A stretch of 21,433 bases of DNA from a virus, in IMG/VR virus record IMGVR_UViG_3300008952_000345, positions 1-21,433 of that record. One strand, written 5' to 3'. Position numbers and translations under genes: made by a program. The notes under the pieces were generated by a model. That model made no database searches. It was not told the origin of the DNA and saw only the letters and a list, made by a program, of their open reading frames with translations. How positions within the stretch are numbered: the stretch's first letter is position 1; each line of letters opens with the position of its first letter. Of the stretch, positions 6,203 to 15,996 are shown piece by piece.

Positions 6203-7003
6203 TTATAACCTCTTTAAGTTAGAATCCAGATTAGCTTGTGTAGAAGCTATGTCTAACTTTTTCTTGCCTAACTTCTTGCCTAACTTTTGTCCAGATATTT
6301 TCTTGCCTAACTTCTTGCCTAACTTTTGTCCAGATATTTTCTTGCCTAAAGTTCGTCTAGGTTTCCGTCTACTGCTGGCGTAGGTTTCACAGTCCTGTAT
6401 AACTTTTTCCAGAAACTTAACATATTTATTCAATTGGCGCTTTCCAGCGAATGAATAACCCTCTTTCAGTTGTCTACATTTTTTGTCAAATGATTCTAAT
6501 ACTTCATTCAAATATTTCTGATAGAATTTTCCATACCTTTTAGCAATATTAACTCCAACACTATTGCCGACTAAAAACTCTATCATGCTAAAATCACTGG
6601 AAAAATCTTCTAAAAAATCATCGATTTCGTGCTCAACTAAACCTAAAGTCAAATCGACTTTTGGGCCGTTGTCAACAATTTTTGCCCTAGTTTTATCCTT
6701 GGAATTATATTTTTCTATCATGCTATTAATAGTTTCTTGAATATTCCGATTGAAATATATCAAAGAACTATGCGGAATACTAAAACCTTGACTAAGTAAA
6801 CTAGAAACAAATCCATCTGTGGCTACAAAATCAAAGTCTTGCTTTAAGTATTTATCATCACAAAGTTTGTTAGATTTTATATAGTTGACAAATTCTTTTT
6901 TTGCAAATCTAGTTGTTCTATTCAGGTTAAACCAATTTAAAGATCTTATCAACCCTAATTCATCTAAATCAACTGCCCAATCTGGTTGCTTTACTATGGC
7001 CAT
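6203..7003 (-). CDS. Conserved T4-like phage protein with lysine-rich tandem-repeat tail
   Basis: A 266-residue protein. The start (DWAVDLDELGLIRSLNWFNLNRTTRFAK) has the look of a conserved family of T4-like phage proteins of unknown role that I have seen in marine myoviruses; I cannot name its domain. The middle is mixed helix. From residue about 210 the tail is very basic: RRKPRRTLGKKISGQKLGKK, then the 13-residue unit again. The repeat is exact at DNA level (39-bp unit, 6261-6349). Such a tail could bind nucleic acid or act as a flexible tether. The gene precedes the envelope cluster and is followed directly by a membrane peptide gene. Confidence 0.7.
   Translation of the reverse strand: MAIVKQPDWAVDLDELGLIRSLNWFNLNRTTRFAKKEFVNYIKSNKLCDDKYLKQDFDFVATDGFVSSLLSQGFSIPHSSLIYFNRNIQETINSMIEKYNSKDKTRAKIVDNGPKVDLTLGLVEHEIDDFLEDFSSDFSMIEFLVGNSVGVNIAKRYGKFYQKYLNEVLESFDKKCRQLKEGYSFAGKRQLNKYVKFLEKVIQDCETYASSRRKPRRTLGKKISGQKLGKKLGKKISGQKLGKKLGKKKLDIASTQANLDSNLKRL
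6261..6349 (-). repeat. 39-bp in-frame tandem repeat (2.3 copies)
   Basis: Two identical 39-bp units at 6261-6299 and 6300-6338, and an 11-base partial copy at 6339-6349. Each unit encodes 13 residues (LGKKISGQKLGKK in one phase) and contains its own small KLGKK sub-repeat. Exact identity, including silent positions, points to recent expansion by slippage. Confidence 0.9.
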
Positions 7004-7889: not shown

Positions 7890-10106
7890 TTAAGCAATGG
7901 CCTCAATAAATTTATTCAAGATTACTCTATTAGTAACTTTACCTTTGGTATGTTTTTTAAATGCTGTTGTCAACTTGGCTTTTGTCATATCACCATCTGG
8001 ACTGAATTTTTCACTACCTTCAATCTCCAGATGTTTTCCACCCCTTATCAGGAAAAACTGATCATATCCAAACTGTTCTACCATAATATATCCATCTTTT
8101 CTATATACTTTAGTAGCATCTTTGAGATCGATTCCTCTGGTATCGATCTGAGTTTGGATTGCATATTTGAAATCATTATTATTGTTTACAATATAATAAC
8201 CGATTACATTCACGTCATAACAATCACCTACACTTTTCAATAATGCTTTTGTTAAATCATACTGACTATCAATACCATATTCTTTTTTAGTTATTGGGTC
8301 AACCACATATCCATTATTGTAATCATCTTGATTTTCTCTATGATACCATGGCGCACTATAGCGAATTCCAGCATTTCTGACATTACCATCTTTGGTACTA
8401 TCCCAAATTAAATCACTAGAATTACTAGCCCCGTCTGTTAGATATATTGCATTTACTTTTGAAATATTATTATCAGTCTTAAACTTTTTAATTATATCCC
8501 TACTTATCACAATAGCATCATTTAATGGTGTACCACTGAGTGCCCATTGATAAGGAAATCTTTGACTAGATCGCCAGCAATAGGTATTGGAACCAATACT
8601 TGAACCAACACAATAAAGATAATAACTGGACTGTTCGTATTCTCTGTTGTTCATTTTACTTGACAATAAATTACGTAATTCAAAATCACTTATCAATAAA
8701 TCACCATCTTGATAATCTCTGTATTTTCTATCTATATTATCAGACAGTGTTAAATCATTAAAACTATAGACTTCAAATGGAATTCCAACTTTTTTACAAA
8801 ACATAGTCAGATTCAATAATTGTTTAATAGTTTCAAAAATACTATTGCTAAATGATCCGCTCCAATCCAGAAATAATATTAAACCATGATTCTTTCCGCC
8901 GGGTATTTCAGTTATAGATGAAAAGATATCTTCAGTATACCTGTAGCTATGAAGTTTATTAACGTCTATTCGACCAGTTTTAGAAACTTTAGCTCTTGAC
9001 AGCTGTTCTGCGTTTTTCTTTAATTCAAACTCTTTGACTAGGTAATTAACAGTTTTAGTAGAATCTTTGCGAAATGTCTTATACAATTCTTTATGATTAG
9101 TTTCAATTTCATCCATTTCAAAAAGAGTTTCTATATTTTGAACCCAATCTTCAACCGACCATGATGTATTACTATCACTGGATATATACACATCTTTATA
9201 ATTAACGACATATCCTTTATTATCAAGATTTGGTATATTTAAATATTCAATTTCTTTGCGATCCTTGTCTACTAAATCCTCGCTATTTTCTTCAAAATTT
9301 TCTTGGGTTTCACTCTTTTCTGGTGTACCGCCATTAGCACCTTTTCTACCAGTTTTACTGGATTTTGTGTCACCATCTTTATCTGAATTTTTATCAGAAT
9401 CGCCAGACTTGTCACCATCTGAATCTTGATCAGATTTTTGCCCCTGTTCTGAATCACCTTTCACTTGACCATCGCTAGGATCGCCATCACCTTCAGAAGC
9501 ATATTCCATATCATCTGGTAACTGAAAATCATTTCTATCGCCACCAGAAGCTTCATATACATCTCTAGTCAATTTTACAACTTGCTCAAAAGTTTCTGCA
9601 TCTTCAATCTTTTCTACTAAAACTTTTTCATCAGCTGTAAATGGTACATCTATCAAATTTCCAATTTTAAAGTATAGATTGATTCTATCAATAAATGAAC
9701 ATTCAGATACTTTTTTATCTGACAGTCCAAAAAAATCTTGGTCTACTAATTCTTGATAGCCAATACGAAAATTCTTACGTAATCCATTAAACTTTCGTTT
9801 GATTTTCTTTTCGATTCTAGCATCTTCAATTACATTCAAATAGGATTTTATAACAGTAGAGTGCTCTTTTGATATACTTTCACAAACATCTTTTAAATCC
9901 TGTTGCGGAGTAAAAAGTGCATGTCCTACTTCATGCCCTACCAACAAGTCATAGGTATCACTTGATATATTTTCCCATGTTGGAAGTATCAGCCGTCGAT
10001 TCAAAATATCAAAAGCTGCTGTTGATACATTTCTATGTTCAACTATAAGATTTTCAGTAGCTAACAATTTTGCTAGATTATTTTTTGAAAGTTTATTAAC
10101 TGTCAT
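7890..10106 (-). CDS. CobT-like protein: HExxH metalloprotease region plus VWA domain
   Basis: A 738-residue protein. Residues 54-64 (LLVGHEVGHAL) hold an HExxH zinc motif (H58, E59, H62). NVIEDARIEKKIKRKF at 91-106 offers the third ligand (E94 or E99), as in gluzincin-type proteins. Residues 205-280 are an acidic, low-complexity linker as in CobT. Residues 405-600 form a VWA domain with a complete MIDAS: D414-W-S416-G-S418, T526 (SGTPLND) and D558 (YLTDG). The C-terminus is helical. In bacteria CobT and CobS with CobN insert cobalt into the corrin ring, but phage versions are not linked to such a pathway. The pairing with the adjacent CobS-like AAA+ protein suggests a MoxR/VWA-type remodelling machine. 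AAGGA before the ATG supports the start. Confidence 0.9.
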   Translation of the reverse strand: MTVNKLSKNNLAKLLATENLIVEHRNVSTAAFDILNRRLILPTWENISSDTYDLLVGHEVGHALFTPQQDLKDVCESISKEHSTVIKSYLNVIEDARIEKKIKRKFNGLRKNFRIGYQELVDQDFFGLSDKKVSECSFIDRINLYFKIGNLIDVPFTADEKVLVEKIEDAETFEQVVKLTRDVYEASGGDRNDFQLPDDMEYASEGDGDPSDGQVKGDSEQGQKSDQDSDGDKSGDSDKNSDKDGDTKSSKTGRKGANGGTPEKSETQENFEENSEDLVDKDRKEIEYLNIPNLDNKGYVVNYKDVYISSDSNTSWSVEDWVQNIETLFEMDEIETNHKELYKTFRKDSTKTVNYLVKEFELKKNAEQLSRAKVSKTGRIDVNKLHSYRYTEDIFSSITEIPGGKNHGLILFLDWSGSFSNSIFETIKQLLNLTMFCKKVGIPFEVYSFNDLTLSDNIDRKYRDYQDGDLLISDFELRNLLSSKMNNREYEQSSYYLYCVGSSIGSNTYCWRSSQRFPYQWALSGTPLNDAIVISRDIIKKFKTDNNISKVNAIYLTDGASNSSDLIWDSTKDGNVRNAGIRYSAPWYHRENQDDYNNGYVVDPITKKEYGIDSQYDLTKALLKSVGDCYDVNVIGYYIVNNNNDFKYAIQTQIDTRGIDLKDATKVYRKDGYIMVEQFGYDQFFLIRGGKHLEIEGSEKFSPDGDMTKAKLTTAFKKHTKGKVTNRVILNKFIEAIA

Positions 10107-10165
10107 GTCTATCCTTGTATCTGATTTTTCCTGTATAATTTTCTACGATTGTAATCTTCAACTGT

Positions 10166-11326
10166 TCAGAACGGTTGTTGTTCTGAAGTTTCTTCCAAAT
10201 CACCATCTATTTTTTCATATAATTCTTTGAAAGAAATTTTGGTTTCTTCATCAAATCTTGCGATACACAAATTAATAGATTTTATTCTATCTTTGAAAAT
10301 TGCAAATGCTTTAGCGATATGTACTAGACGCCGTGTTGATATAATTTCATCAACACCACCATCAAAATAGGTCTTACGGATAATATCAGCCCAACGTACC
10401 AATTTATCACCAAATTCTTGCGATTCCTTTTCATCAATTTTTGCACTTTCAAATACACCTTTGACTATTCTTAATTCTACACTATTTTTAGGATATTCCT
10501 GCTCAAGTGTAATGGCGAATCTTTCTAAAAATGCTTCATTTAAGATGTTAGTACCAATGAAAGCCCCACTATCACTGCCTTTACCTTTAGTATTAGCTGT
10601 AGCTACTACTGTAAATCCAGCAGCTGGTTTGACCCATTGATTGATTTTTTTCAGGTATACACCTTTGCCCTCAAGCACTGGTTGTAGACATAAAATTTTA
10701 TTTGAAGCTAAATCTACTTCATCTAATAACAGTACAGCTCCACGTTCCATCGCATCTACTACCGGCCCTTTATGGAATACTGTTTCACCATCAACTAGTC
10801 TAAAACCGCCCAATAGATCATCTTCGTCTGTTTCGACTGTTATATTTACTCTGACACATTCTTTGTTCAATTTAGCACATACTTGCTCAACCATGTATGT
10901 TTTTCCATTGCCAGAAAGTCCAGTAATAAAGATGGGATAGAATACACCAGATTTAATGATACTAGATAAATCTTTATGATGGCCCCACGGCACATAACTT
11001 TCTTCAACTTCTGGTATAAAGCTAATTTCTTTAGCTACTATACTTTCAGCTGAAATTTCACTAGCCACAGATGGTGTACCTTTGACTGCAGTTTGAGATA
11101 TTTCAGTCGAAATATCTTTTTGGTTCATTTCATCACCATCAACAGGTAATCTGAATTGACCTCTTTTAACTCTATAGTTATCAGTGAACCAACGGAAGCT
11201 TTTTAGTGGTAATTCAGTTTTTAGGTCAACTAATGCACTATCTAATTCTGCTTTTGTGATGATAACTTTGCCAAGATGGCCGTGAAGTAATTCAACTGAT
11301 TTTGCTCTTTTTTCTGCACTTGTCAT
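10166..11326 (-). CDS. CobS/MoxR-like AAA+ ATPase
   Basis: A 386-residue protein. Walker A GLSGNGKT at 136-143 (K142), Walker B VLLLDEVD at 198-205 (E203), sensor-1 VATANT (N245) and an arginine finger in NEAFLERF (R269) show an intact ATPase of the CobS/MoxR group. Residues 40-62 (LPLKSFRWFTDNYRVKRGQFRLP) and a Ser/Glu-rich linker precede the core. ATP hydrolysis probably drives remodelling of a protein partner together with the CobT-like VWA protein encoded 59 bases downstream; the same pair occurs in many marine T4-like phages. AGGAT before the ATG fits translation. Substrate unknown. Confidence 0.92.
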   Translation of the reverse strand: MTSAEKRAKSVELLHGHLGKVIITKAELDSALVDLKTELPLKSFRWFTDNYRVKRGQFRLPVDGDEMNQKDISTEISQTAVKGTPSVASEISAESIVAKEISFIPEVEESYVPWGHHKDLSSIIKSGVFYPIFITGLSGNGKTYMVEQVCAKLNKECVRVNITVETDEDDLLGGFRLVDGETVFHKGPVVDAMERGAVLLLDEVDLASNKILCLQPVLEGKGVYLKKINQWVKPAAGFTVVATANTKGKGSDSGAFIGTNILNEAFLERFAITLEQEYPKNSVELRIVKGVFESAKIDEKESQEFGDKLVRWADIIRKTYFDGGVDEIISTRRLVHIAKAFAIFKDRIKSINLCIARFDEETKISFKELYEKIDGDLEETSEQQPF

Positions 11327-12457: not shown

Positions 12458-12617
12458 GGCTGTTTTCACTTTTTACAAAGTTTTTTCGTAGGGTCTGGTA
12501 TACTCTTTTCAGGAATTCTTCACGATTTTTCTGGTAGATTTCTTTTTGGGTTGAATTTTGAATTTTCTTTTGAATGTCCAAATGTAAATTAGTGGCAATG
12601 GTTGGAATGATTTTCAT
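12429..12617 (-). CDS. Small unknown protein headed by promoter P4
   Basis: Encodes 62 residues (MKIIPTIATNLHLDIQKKIQ ... KNREEFLKRVYQTLRKNFVKSENSLDNGQGNMV), helical and basic. AAAAGGAAAAG lies directly before the ATG, and promoter P4 is about 25 bases upstream. The last ten residues are encoded by the P3 promoter sequence, so this tail is probably under little protein-level constraint. Function unknown. Confidence 0.6.
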   Translation of the reverse strand: MKIIPTIATNLHLDIQKKIQNSTQKEIYQKNREEFLKRVYQTLRKNFVKSENSLDNGQGNMV

Positions 12618-13236
12618 TTCTTTTCCTTTTCCCTTTTCCTATATTATACCATATTTCAGGGGTCGTTGTCAAGGTAAAAGAGCTCTTTTTGACCATTTTT
12701 ATAAAAAAAAATTTTAAAAAATTTTTCTGAGGGTTTTTTGAAAATCTCTGCTCGTGTTTGTGCGTGTCTAGCCGAACTTCACCCTCGATTTTCACAGATA
12801 CCCTATATGACTGTCCTTTTCGACTTTCCCCAAAATCGAAAAACTTTTCATAACTGCTCAAAAAGCTCAAAAAACCACTTTTTTGACTAAAAAGCGCTTT
12901 TGTATGAATTTTTGATTTTTCGTCGAAAAGCTCAAAATCGATCAAAAAGCTACTTTTTAGTGCATTTTCATGAATCACAAACCGTGCCAAGTCAAAAAAC
13001 CACTTTTTTGAGCTTTTTTGTAAACATTTTGTAAAATTCTGTGATTCACAATCCGTGCCAAGTTTTTTCAGCTTTTCAATATCAATTTTCAGCTGCTTTT
13101 TAGTCCATTTTCCCAATTCACAAACTGTGCCAACTTTTTTGTTGAAACTGAGCTGTTTTTGAGCTGAAATTTCACTATGGACTGAAATACAGCTGTTTTG
13201 GTCTGTTTTTGGTACTTTTAGCTCAATATTTGTCAT
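12589..13236 (-). CDS. Dubious 215-codon frame across a repeat-rich region
   Basis: The frame is open from ATG at 13236 and lies behind promoter P5. For it: a 215-codon open frame is unlikely by chance in AT-rich DNA, and the first 75 residues (LKVPKTDQNSCISVHSEISA, then KKVGTVCELGKWTKKQLKIDIEKLKKLGTDCES) look protein-like. Against it: no ribosome site is clear; identical DNA repeats are read in different frames (SSKKWFFD versus SQKSGFLS from the same hairpin); the last third contains long A/T runs; and it reads through promoter P4 and 29 bases into the next gene. Possibly only the N-terminal half is meaningful, or the region works as DNA or RNA. No family recognised. Confidence 0.35.
   Translation of the reverse strand: MTNIELKVPKTDQNSCISVHSEISAQKQLSFNKKVGTVCELGKWTKKQLKIDIEKLKKLGTDCESQNFTKCLQKSSKKWFFDLARFVIHENALKSSFLIDFELFDEKSKIHTKALFSQKSGFLSFLSSYEKFFDFGESRKGQSYRVSVKIEGEVRLDTHKHEQRFSKNPQKNFLKFFFIKMVKKSSFTLTTTPEIWYNIGKGKRKRNENHSNHCH
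12643..12672 (-). promoter_or_regulatory. Sigma70-type promoter P4
   Basis: TTGACA (12672-12667), 18-bp spacer, TATAAT (12648-12643), identical to P2 over 36 bases (12640-12675) but without the GTGAAAATAGCC flank. About 19 bases of leader precede the ATG at 12617. Confidence 0.9.
12867..13011. repeat. Pair of identical A/T hairpins
   Basis: TCAAAAAACCACTTTTTTGA occurs at 12867-12886 and again at 12992-13011. Each is an 8-bp perfect stem with a CCAC (minus strand GTGG) loop. A palindrome AAAAGCGCTTTT and a hairpin AAAAAG-CTA-CTTTTT lie between them. Within the open frame the two copies fall in different phases. Confidence 0.75.
12973..13133. repeat. Three 18-bp motifs at 71-72 bp spacing
   Basis: Copies at 12973-12990, 13044-13061 and 13116-13133 follow the consensus ATTCACAAACCGTGCCAA with one to three differences. 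Starts are 71 and 72 bases apart. Each is followed on the plus strand by a short link and an A/T tract. The first two steps differ in reading phase, so the conservation is at DNA or RNA level. Confidence 0.7.
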
Positions 13237-15633: not shown

Positions 15634-15996
15634 TTATCCAAGTTCATATAAAGTATAGCTACACGTTACTTCATGGCCGCATTTTATATCTTGAATTGTA
15701 AACAATCGTTTTACGGTAAGGTAATTGGAAGAAGCTTTGGCCTGTGGTTCTGGCCAATATTCCAAATAGTCATGCTGAAATATGGAACTACCTTCAATTA
15801 GTATACAGTTGGGTTCATCACTATGATTGTAAAACCCGCCTAATGGTGTTCTACAATATCCTTGAGGAAAACTAGGCAGCTTGACATGAGCAATGCCTAA
15901 ATCACATCCTGCGTATATATTGGATGTGGCGAATACGCCCAAACCATGAATTTCGGATTTTTTAATTGTTAGACAGGGTGGCAGAGGTTTGTACAT
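15634..15996 (-). CDS. SET-domain protein (putative lysine methyltransferase)
   Basis: A 120-residue compact SET domain. IHGLGVFATSNIYAG (16-30) is the opening strand and turn. GGFYNHSDEPNC (53-64) contains the NHS motif that binds S-adenosylmethionine. I-D-IKCGHEVTCSYTLY (101-117) holds the conserved Tyr. Such proteins move a methyl group to lysine, here perhaps of a host or phage protein. It lacks pre- and post-SET zinc motifs, as do other viral SET proteins. It overlaps the upstream GIY-YIG gene by 35 bases. No strong ribosome site, so expression may depend on coupling. Target unknown. Confidence 0.85.
   Translation of the reverse strand: MYKPLPPCLTIKKSEIHGLGVFATSNIYAGCDLGIAHVKLPSFPQGYCRTPLGGFYNHSDEPNCILIEGSSIFQHDYLEYWPEPQAKASSNYLTVKRLFTIQDIKCGHEVTCSYTLYELG

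Follow-up and report, generated by a model that had tools for sequence, protein, structure and literature searches.

Phage CobS-like and CobT-like proteins as a probable AAA+/VWA pair with a predicted zincin-like domain

Phage genes cobS and cobT are commonly read as genes of B12 synthesis (PMC9503304, PMC8651126, PMC11288001, PMC11705849). Marine T4-like cyanophages have cobS in their core gene set, and it has served as a marker for them (PMC3037559, PMC9983427); cobST is recorded as cyanophage core in PMC8651126; further literature includes PMC7159879 and PMC7029224. Two accounts of such pairs are in print. Liu 2021 (PMC8651126) treats the peptidase label of phage CobT as a mistake and suggests that the phage pair uses the CobN of its host to make B12. 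Iyer 2021 (PMC7824862) describes a jumbo-phage MoxR/vWA pair with an N-terminal metallopeptidase and proposes a role in virion assembly. IMG/VR virus record IMGVR_UViG_3300008952_000345, a stretch of 21,433 bases that was analysed whole and is called the window here, encodes a CobS-like AAA+ ATPase (S) and a CobT-like protein (T) in two intact open reading frames (ORFs) on the minus strand, S upstream of T with a spacing of 59 nucleotides.

We consider it reasonably probable that S and T form a two-component MoxR-type AAA+/VWA machine with a zinc metallopeptidase-type domain, carried by phages and plasmids, and that they do not serve as partners of a cobalt chelatase. That S and T touch, and that T cleaves protein, we infer. 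The data favour the Iyer-type over the Liu-type account; the idea of a remodelling metallopeptidase is itself not new, since it is found in Iyer 2021.

T matches the PHROG 459 profile, labelled "peptidase", over its full length (5.6e-211, positions 3-736 of 736), is 28-39% identical to its direct phage homologues (the cyanophage gp150 "peptidase" group), and reads HEVGH at residues 58-62. T had 148 relatives in a scan of IMG/VR, of which 79 distinct loci were kept. These loci plus seven named phages make up the viral alignment, in which counts are taken over rows with letters at a given position. HExxH is kept in 78/78 readable T homologues from viral contigs, a count that excludes L074, cut by its contig end. 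E59 is kept in 82/82 rows and N91 in 81/81. Position 94 is E in 80 rows and V in one, position 95 is D in 80 and S in one, and E99 is D in 2 of 81; in ICP2 and Saratov-15, closely related Vibrio phages, V stands at E94 and D95 is retained. The zincin combination of HExxH with a conserved acid downstream is thus present, the acid being E94 or D95. An earlier sequence-only reading of this DNA had singled out H58, E59, H62 and E94/E99 as the residues to follow in phage homologues. The first three and E94 are conserved as expected, while E99 yields to D95, the more constrained position, so that by alignment E94 and D95, within N-x-x-E-D-x-R-I-[ED], are the best candidates for the third ligand. That reading would have fallen with loss of HExxH or of the metal ion-dependent adhesion site (MIDAS) in most phage homologues; in the VWA domain the MIDAS residues D414, S416 and S418 are kept in 83/83 rows and D558 in 85/85, beside the 78/78 for HExxH. 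The viral loci were fetched by six patterns, one of them EKKIKRKF, with HExxH and MIDAS not among them. As the fetch patterns include EKKIKRKF and N-x-E-D-x-R-I-E, conservation in those stretches is partly a product of selection.

A scan of bacterial genomes by the motif N-x-E-D-x-R-I-E, a pattern that does not contain HExxH, gave 77 loci, 70 with a readable T frame. These were taken as mobile-element rows by label, not each as proven mobile; one of them, L142, encodes a T with 99.3% identity to a protein of a Pseudomonas plasmid. E59 is present in 70/70 and HExxH in 67/70. The remaining three bacterial contigs (L149, L151 and L153) read HEGVGH, an HExxxH one residue longer, with N-x-x-E-D intact. 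Eleven of 13 named elements carry HExxH (the 13 are S-SM1, OC, HTVC008M, nickie, B1VFA, Saratov-15, Kp4727, SSU5, RHph_N1_10, BUCTxx99, ICP2, Anamika and pYR1), a count in which ICP2 and Saratov-15, as near relatives, are not independent.

Judged by alignment, phage T can be told apart from the cobaltochelatase subunit of the same name by its zinc motif. True CobT proteins were taken from a PF06213 search of 299 genomes of one phylum; 93 had a match and the best 30 were scored. None of these 30 best-scoring proteins has HExxH inside the 60 residues before the E-x-A-R motif, and at the position of D95 they have Q, T, S, N or R. A typical true CobT reads RGHADSIALKLACHD...EAVEQARVE, versus VGHEVGHALFTP...NVIEDARIE in phage T. 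An HExxH in the stop-to-stop frame of L191 was rejected as not the aligned site, because it does not fall within 60 residues before E-x-A-R and is absent from the ATG-started reading. Ten lower-scoring PF06213 matches were also inspected. L212, L213 and L215 carry the T-type HExxH with N-x-x-E-D, L214 has HEIVCH, the HExxH of L211 lies elsewhere, and the rest show none; with three of ten of T type, the two kinds of protein meet at the low-scoring end of PF06213.

Direct comparison of T with CobT is weak. Window T has no match to the CobT Pfam models PF06213 and PF11775, direct BLASTP of window T against a CobT found nothing, and hhalign of the T domain with CobT N-termini gave P 0.0014 at a probability of 17%, placing the histidines unlike the reading by eye. 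The link therefore rests on intermediate proteins. The T of Rhizobium phage B1VFA, which has HEVGH, matches CobT_C at 124 bits and that of ICP2 does so at 101 bits, while the T of plasmid pYR1, with HEAAH, matches the CobT N-terminal model PF06213 at 27.6 bits against a cut-off of 26.1. From these sequence matches, the T domain and the N-terminal domain of CobT are probably related. Cobaltochelatase CobS/CobT (TIGR01650, PF06213/PF11775) shares with S and T the AAA+ and VWA parts and an acidic linker, a remote homology seen via the intermediates, and differs in the missing HExxH of its 30 best CobT members and in the separate branch of true CobS.

That branch appears in a tree of 68 S and CobS rows, where true CobS stands on its own with 100/100 support and window S groups with phage S; the true CobS rows were matches in 26 CobT loci, reduced to five at 85% identity. 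Against the CobS equivalog model PD_CobS (TIGR01650), S scores 94.8 bits, far below the cut-off of 558.55. It matches the profile of PHROG 249, the phage CobS family annotated "porphyrin biosynthesis" (9.9e-116), and its Pfam matches are AAA_5 (5.3e-19) and CbbQ_C (7.6e-5). By sequence, the PDB entries matched are midasin (5.2e-44), CobS 9ujv (1.3e-28), CbbQ 5c3c (9e-12) and NorQ 9qh4 (1.1e-10). S is 53.3% identical over 98% of its length to its homologue in HTVC008M, reaches 65% across the AAA core, and has a variable N-terminal extension of about 90 residues. Besides Walker A and B, it contains N245, R269 and R332, which by position we take to be sensor 1, arginine finger and sensor 2. With a MIDAS-bearing VWA domain in the co-encoded T, these are the features of a MoxR AAA+/VWA pair.

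The account of Liu 2021 makes the pair a cobaltochelatase hijack, in which phage CobST and host CobN raise B12 production. As the sequence-only reading had also noted, no CobN (PF02514) was found in the window record, which is a fragment, nor was one found in any of 19 phage or plasmid records (18 with T and one, JD007, without). Among bacterial genomes, a PF02514 protein is present in Synechococcus elongatus and in the Pseudomonas genome of L142; none was found in those of L090 (Desulfallas) and L128 (Vibrio hepatarius). Of 14 control genomes 5 have one, E. coli not among the five. In hosts that hold PF02514, a phage or plasmid without CobN of its own could draw on the host protein. A hijack would also fit the place of S in the CobS/midasin neighbourhood of PDB matches and the matches of T relatives to CobT_C (B1VFA, ICP2) and to the CobT N-terminal model (pYR1). 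We nevertheless regard it as very unlikely. The zinc motif is absent from the 30 best true CobT proteins and kept in phage T, S falls below the CobS cut-off with true CobS apart (100/100), CobN is missing from the 19 records and from the L090 and L128 genomes, and of the 1178 plasmid records in which a T relative was found 163 come from Escherichia, although E. coli is not among the controls with PF02514. To our knowledge, SAR11, the host of HTVC008M, has no B12 synthesis, which we also count against a CobN hijack.

Structure prediction agrees with the motif. In the full-length model of T (mean predicted local distance difference test, pLDDT, 68.1), a helical region lies between the acidic linker and the VWA domain. 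Entries with VWA domains predominate among the listed Foldseek matches of whole T; since the VWA domain dominates that search, the N-terminal domain was folded alone. Residues 1-193, modelled by AlphaFold2 with 91 sequences, reach a pLDDT of 94.5 and a predicted template modelling score (pTM) of 0.90. The structural matches by Z score include BepA at 7.4 (root-mean-square deviation, rmsd, 3.5 over 124 aligned residues) and 6.8, jannalysin at 7.1, abylysin at 6.9, selecase at 6.5, ArdC of plasmid R388 at 6.3 (rmsd 3.8, 117 aligned), BlaR1 at 5.8 and ZMPSTE24 at 5.6, and every one of the 13 listed entries between Z 5.0 and 7.4 is a zincin-type structure. The first five Foldseek rows for the domain are the same minimal zincins, and Wss1 and IrrE/PprI appear weakly (Z 4.3-4.8). 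On this model the N-terminal domain of T is predicted to have a zincin-like fold, in common with selecase, jannalysin, abylysin and M48 BepA. Those proteins carry HExxH, and we know of none of them that is joined to a VWA domain or an AAA+ partner. The Pfam model MPTase-PolyVal is touched by one of 33 T proteins (E 0.0053). The solved CobT structures 9uka and 21vu are not among the matches listed in the T fold searches. With HExxH and MIDAS kept, the 30 best-scoring true CobT proteins without HExxH and a zincin-like model, the preference of the sequence-only reading for remodelling or proteolysis over metal chelation is supported.

The VWA domain of T finds its best match in the VWA domain of NorD (9qh6_G; VIA-align Z 16.3, rmsd 7.5, 250 aligned), and a further close one in the MIDAS domain of midasin (8ql1_A; VIA-align Z 14.4, rmsd 3.6, 223 aligned). 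NorQ/NorD (9qh6; PMC13036017) is likewise a MoxR ATPase with a VWA partner. It differs in function, inserting iron into nitric oxide reductase, and the available text of PMC13036017 describes no HExxH peptidase role for it. PMC13036017 describes for NorQD a VWA finger inserted in the AAA+ pore, with ATP hydrolysis rotating the VWA domain and extending the linker that leads to the N-terminal domain. The parts of T stand in the same order, with the zincin-like domain as the N-terminal part, which suggests straining of a substrate and its presentation to the zinc site. By analogy with NorQD, an S hexamer would dock on the VWA domain of T, whose MIDAS site would hold an acidic side chain of a protein substrate, and ATP hydrolysis would turn the VWA domain and stretch the acidic linker. 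The remodelled substrate could then reach the HExxH domain, at the far end of T, and undergo limited cleavage there. Such a machine would act inside the infected cell, and not as a partner of cobalt chelatase.

The two genes also travel together. Searches of 50,697 phage records found T and S in equal numbers of records, 365 for those named Synechococcus, 61 for Cyanophage and 24 for Prochlorococcus. Of the 79 T loci from IMG/VR, 39 also contain S, on the strand of T. S is upstream of T in L002-L006, the arrangement of the window, and downstream of it in the remaining 34; T-then-S is also the order in S-SM1, OC and HTVC008M. Nine records without a neighbouring S were searched whole, and five have S elsewhere. 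An S-type ATPase (E 1e-5 with the S profile) is found in the locus of 60/70 bacterial T loci. The sequence-only reading placed the pair in marine T4-like phages. It is indeed present in cyanophages and HTVC008M, yet is not confined to that group, occurring in Kyanoviridae, in phages of the nickie, SSU5, BUCTxx99 and Rhizobium types, in ICP2-type vibriophages, in Gordonia phage Anamika and on a plasmid. With S of ICP2 as query, the matches are dominated by cyanophages. In the record of L042, the S homologue at 66477-67345 was matched in two consecutive frames and may be split or frame-shifted. S also matches 236 Staphylococcus phage records weakly. The large neighbour in one of these, JD007, with HEAFH and a DISKS string, has no DxSGS and a layout unlike T, and was not counted; in Mycobacterium phage Aegeus no T-like neighbour was recognisable.

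Several observations weigh against a metallopeptidase machine. T has no Pfam match up to E 0.1, so that neither CobT nor VWA models recognise it. No convincing S was found in four of the nine records searched whole, contigs of 20-92 kb. The domain of residues 1-193 has no Foldseek match in the PDB at E 0.001 or better and its Z scores are all below 8; with scores so modest, the zincin call leans on the unanimity of the matches and on the motif. In the alignment of 91 domains (A3), H58, E59, H62, N91, E94, D95, R97, I98 and G108 are invariant, partly by construction, since possession of HExxH and the E-D motif was the condition for including a bacterial row; the fair measures of conservation are the counts from the viral alignment and from the 70 bacterial loci. 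Finally, T of Pseudomonas phage nickie (L085, 2358-4442) reads SEISK at the HExxH site and that of Stenotrophomonas phage BUCTxx99 (L172, 5983-7968) reads REVST. Both histidines are lost while MIDAS and E59 stay; by sequence these are natural losses of the metal site within one phage group. The metal site is therefore dispensable in some lineages, and E59, persisting there, may have another role.

These losses bring in the possibility of a metal site with a structural or regulatory task, the machine being a pure remodeller like NorQD. The kept MIDAS of nickie and BUCTxx99 agrees with this, as do the HExxxH of three of the 70 bacterial loci, the ability of true CobT to function without the motif, and E59 in the absence of histidines, a sign that conservation need not mean catalysis. 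In zincins, a glutamate of the E59 type activates water and is not a metal ligand, for which reason its conservation favours hydrolysis over structural zinc. A structural site would not need E59, which is nonetheless found in 82/82 viral rows and 70/70 bacterial loci. Its persistence in the two phages without histidines weakens the argument from hydrolysis, and we rate a purely structural or regulatory site as unlikely.

Three further rival accounts have the pair act on virion proteins, on proteins bound to DNA, or on proteins of the host. The first of these follows Iyer 2021, in which the pair acts as a virion-assembly chaperone with proteolytic maturation, remodelling and trimming structural proteins. 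It was proposed for jumbo phages by analogy with an archaeal virus (PMC7824862), and the core status of cobS in T4-like cyanophages (PMC3037559) fits a structural need. A search with the T of L142, however, finds T relatives in 1178 plasmid records, of which 972 are predicted to be conjugative; virion assembly therefore cannot be the sole use of the family, though phage members could have been specialised for it. The S partner was checked in one of these plasmids, IncC plasmid pYR1 (L167, L224), and is present, upstream of ssb, bet, a lambda-type exo, DUF3150 and then T. The ICP2 pair has primase, helicase and polymerase genes close by and shares the strand of the replication genes, while the annotated virion genes are on the opposite one. 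From the pair to the closest annotated virion gene it is 6.8 kb in S-SM1, 16.4 kb in SSU5 and 9.6 kb in ICP2, distances that are not unusual by random placement (P 0.13, 0.42, 0.38; the last 3.3 kb of SSU5 were not covered in this and the following tests). An assembly role for the pair appears doubtful.

A second possibility is a DNA-metabolism machine, in which S and T remove or cleave proteins on replicating or recombining DNA in the manner of SPRTN/Wss1. Besides the neighbours in ICP2, the pair lies between gp46/gp47 and gp45/gp44/gp62 in Kyanoviridae phages and near ligase, primase or PolIII alpha in phages of the SSU5, nickie, Rhizobium and BUCTxx99 types. It is 181-867 nucleotides from a replication gene in S-SM1, SSU5 and ICP2. 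The ssb, bet and exo genes between S and T in pYR1 and the weak structural matches to Wss1 and IrrE/PprI point the same way. The closeness to replication genes is nevertheless not beyond chance, with P 0.24, 0.50 and 0.29 for S-SM1, SSU5 and ICP2, and P 0.47, 0.66 and 0.36 when placement is restricted to positions outside annotated virion genes; as random placement is as close in 24-50% of cases, the replication pattern is suggestive only. Anamika has no annotated replication gene within 5 kb of the pair, where most genes are unannotated. We think a role on DNA rather improbable for the pair as a whole.

Third, the zincin domain might target host proteins such as defence factors, as in antirestriction of the ArdC type, with S as the unfoldase. 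ArdC-like proteins are termed zincin-like metallopeptidases in PMC7824862. ArdC of R388 is among the structural matches (Z 6.3), and the family is spread over phages and plasmids. The neighbourhoods read contain no annotated defence gene, however, and PADLOC returned nothing for T and weak matches only for S (best E 0.0061). The core status of the gene in cyanophages (PMC3037559) suggests a core rather than an accessory role. Taken together, a host-directed function seems quite unlikely.

Among known systems, the cyanophage CobS and gp150 "peptidase" (PHROG 249/459, the cobST of Liu) are direct homologues of S and T. The Iyer group 2.2 jumbo-phage pair has the same architecture, a MoxR ATPase with a vWA/N-terminal metallopeptidase protein, and, likened by description, is probably of the same family; its examples (ASV44729.1, ASV44728.2) come from jumbo phages, whereas here the pair is on a marine T4-like fragment with relatives also on plasmids. 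A search of the open-access literature did not show the absence of HExxH from true CobT, or the metallopeptidase pair on conjugative plasmids, in print. More tentatively, we suggest as one joint claim that an ATP-driven metalloprotease family on mobile elements has been misfiled as cobaltochelatase, its carriers being marine T4-like phages, phage-plasmids, vibriophages, actinophages and conjugative IncC plasmids. If the partner of S is a zinc-protease-like protein and no chelatase subunit, the ecological inference about B12 fails for the S-T pair. A remodelling or proteolytic step that phages share with conjugative plasmids could then be tested directly, and an evolutionary source for the N-terminal domain of CobT would be suggested.

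Positions of the two genes, their domains and motifs are collected in Table 1. The sequence-only reading had both partners intact with all motifs it named, and coordinates, motif strings and alignments agree on this.

Table 1. Features of S and T in the window. S counts come from an alignment of 49 S proteins, window S among them; T counts come from the viral alignment.
Feature	Position	Strand	Evidence
S, CobS-like MoxR-clade AAA+ ATPase, 386 aa	10166..11326	-	PHROG 249, AAA_5, CbbQ_C
S Walker A GLSGNGKT, residues 136-143	10898..10921	-	G136, G139, G141, K142 identical in 49/49
S Walker B VLLLDE, residues 198-203	10718..10735	-	D202, E203 identical in 49/49
S N245, presumed sensor 1	10592..10594	-	identical in 49/49
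S R269, putative arginine finger	10520..10522	-	identical in 49/49
S R332, putative sensor 2	10331..10333	-	R in 47/47 rows with letters
T, CobT-like protein, 738 aa (zincin-like domain, acidic linker, helical region, VWA)	7890..10106	-	PHROG 459 and structure models
T predicted zincin-like metallopeptidase domain, residues 1-193	9528..10106	-	AlphaFold2 model and structural matches
T HEVGH zinc motif, residues 58-62	9921..9935	-	motif and alignments
T N91-V-I-E94-D95-A-R-I-E99, probable third-ligand helix	9810..9836	-	N91 in 81/81, E94 and D95 each in 80/81
T acidic low-confidence linker, residues 194-265	9312..9527	-	pLDDT <50 at 196-259; rich in D/E/S/G
T VWA domain, residues 404-738	7893..8897	-	VIA-align to NorD, midasin
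T MIDAS DWSGS, residues 414-418	8853..8867	-	D414, S416, S418 in 83/83 rows with letters
T MIDAS T526	8529..8531	-	T in 81, N in 4 of 85 rows with letters
T MIDAS D558	8433..8435	-	85/85 rows with letters

The neighbours of S and T in the window include a Thy1-type ThyX, a DNA ligase, a T4-type RNase H, an Hsp20, a SegE-like GIY-YIG enzyme and an endonuclease VII-like gene, and the gene complement around the pair is that of a T4-like phage. Four other ORFs of the window, all on the minus strand, were noted in passing. That at 15634-15996 encodes a small SET-domain protein (PF00856, 29.9 bits), unexpected in a phage. The 215-residue ORF at 12589-13236 is rich in K, F and S and has no Pfam match at E 0.1 and no PHROG match at E 0.01. 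A 266-residue ORF at 6203-7003 has a repeated lysine-rich stretch, LGKKISGQKLGKK, in its C-terminal part, and matches PHROG 11903 and, weakly and below the cut-off, SAM_LFY. At the end of the record, 516-1703 encodes a protein with a Laminin_G_3 (concanavalin-like) domain; the adjacent ORF (1-516) begins similarly and contains a Gly-rich stretch, and is perhaps related to adhesins or tail fibres.

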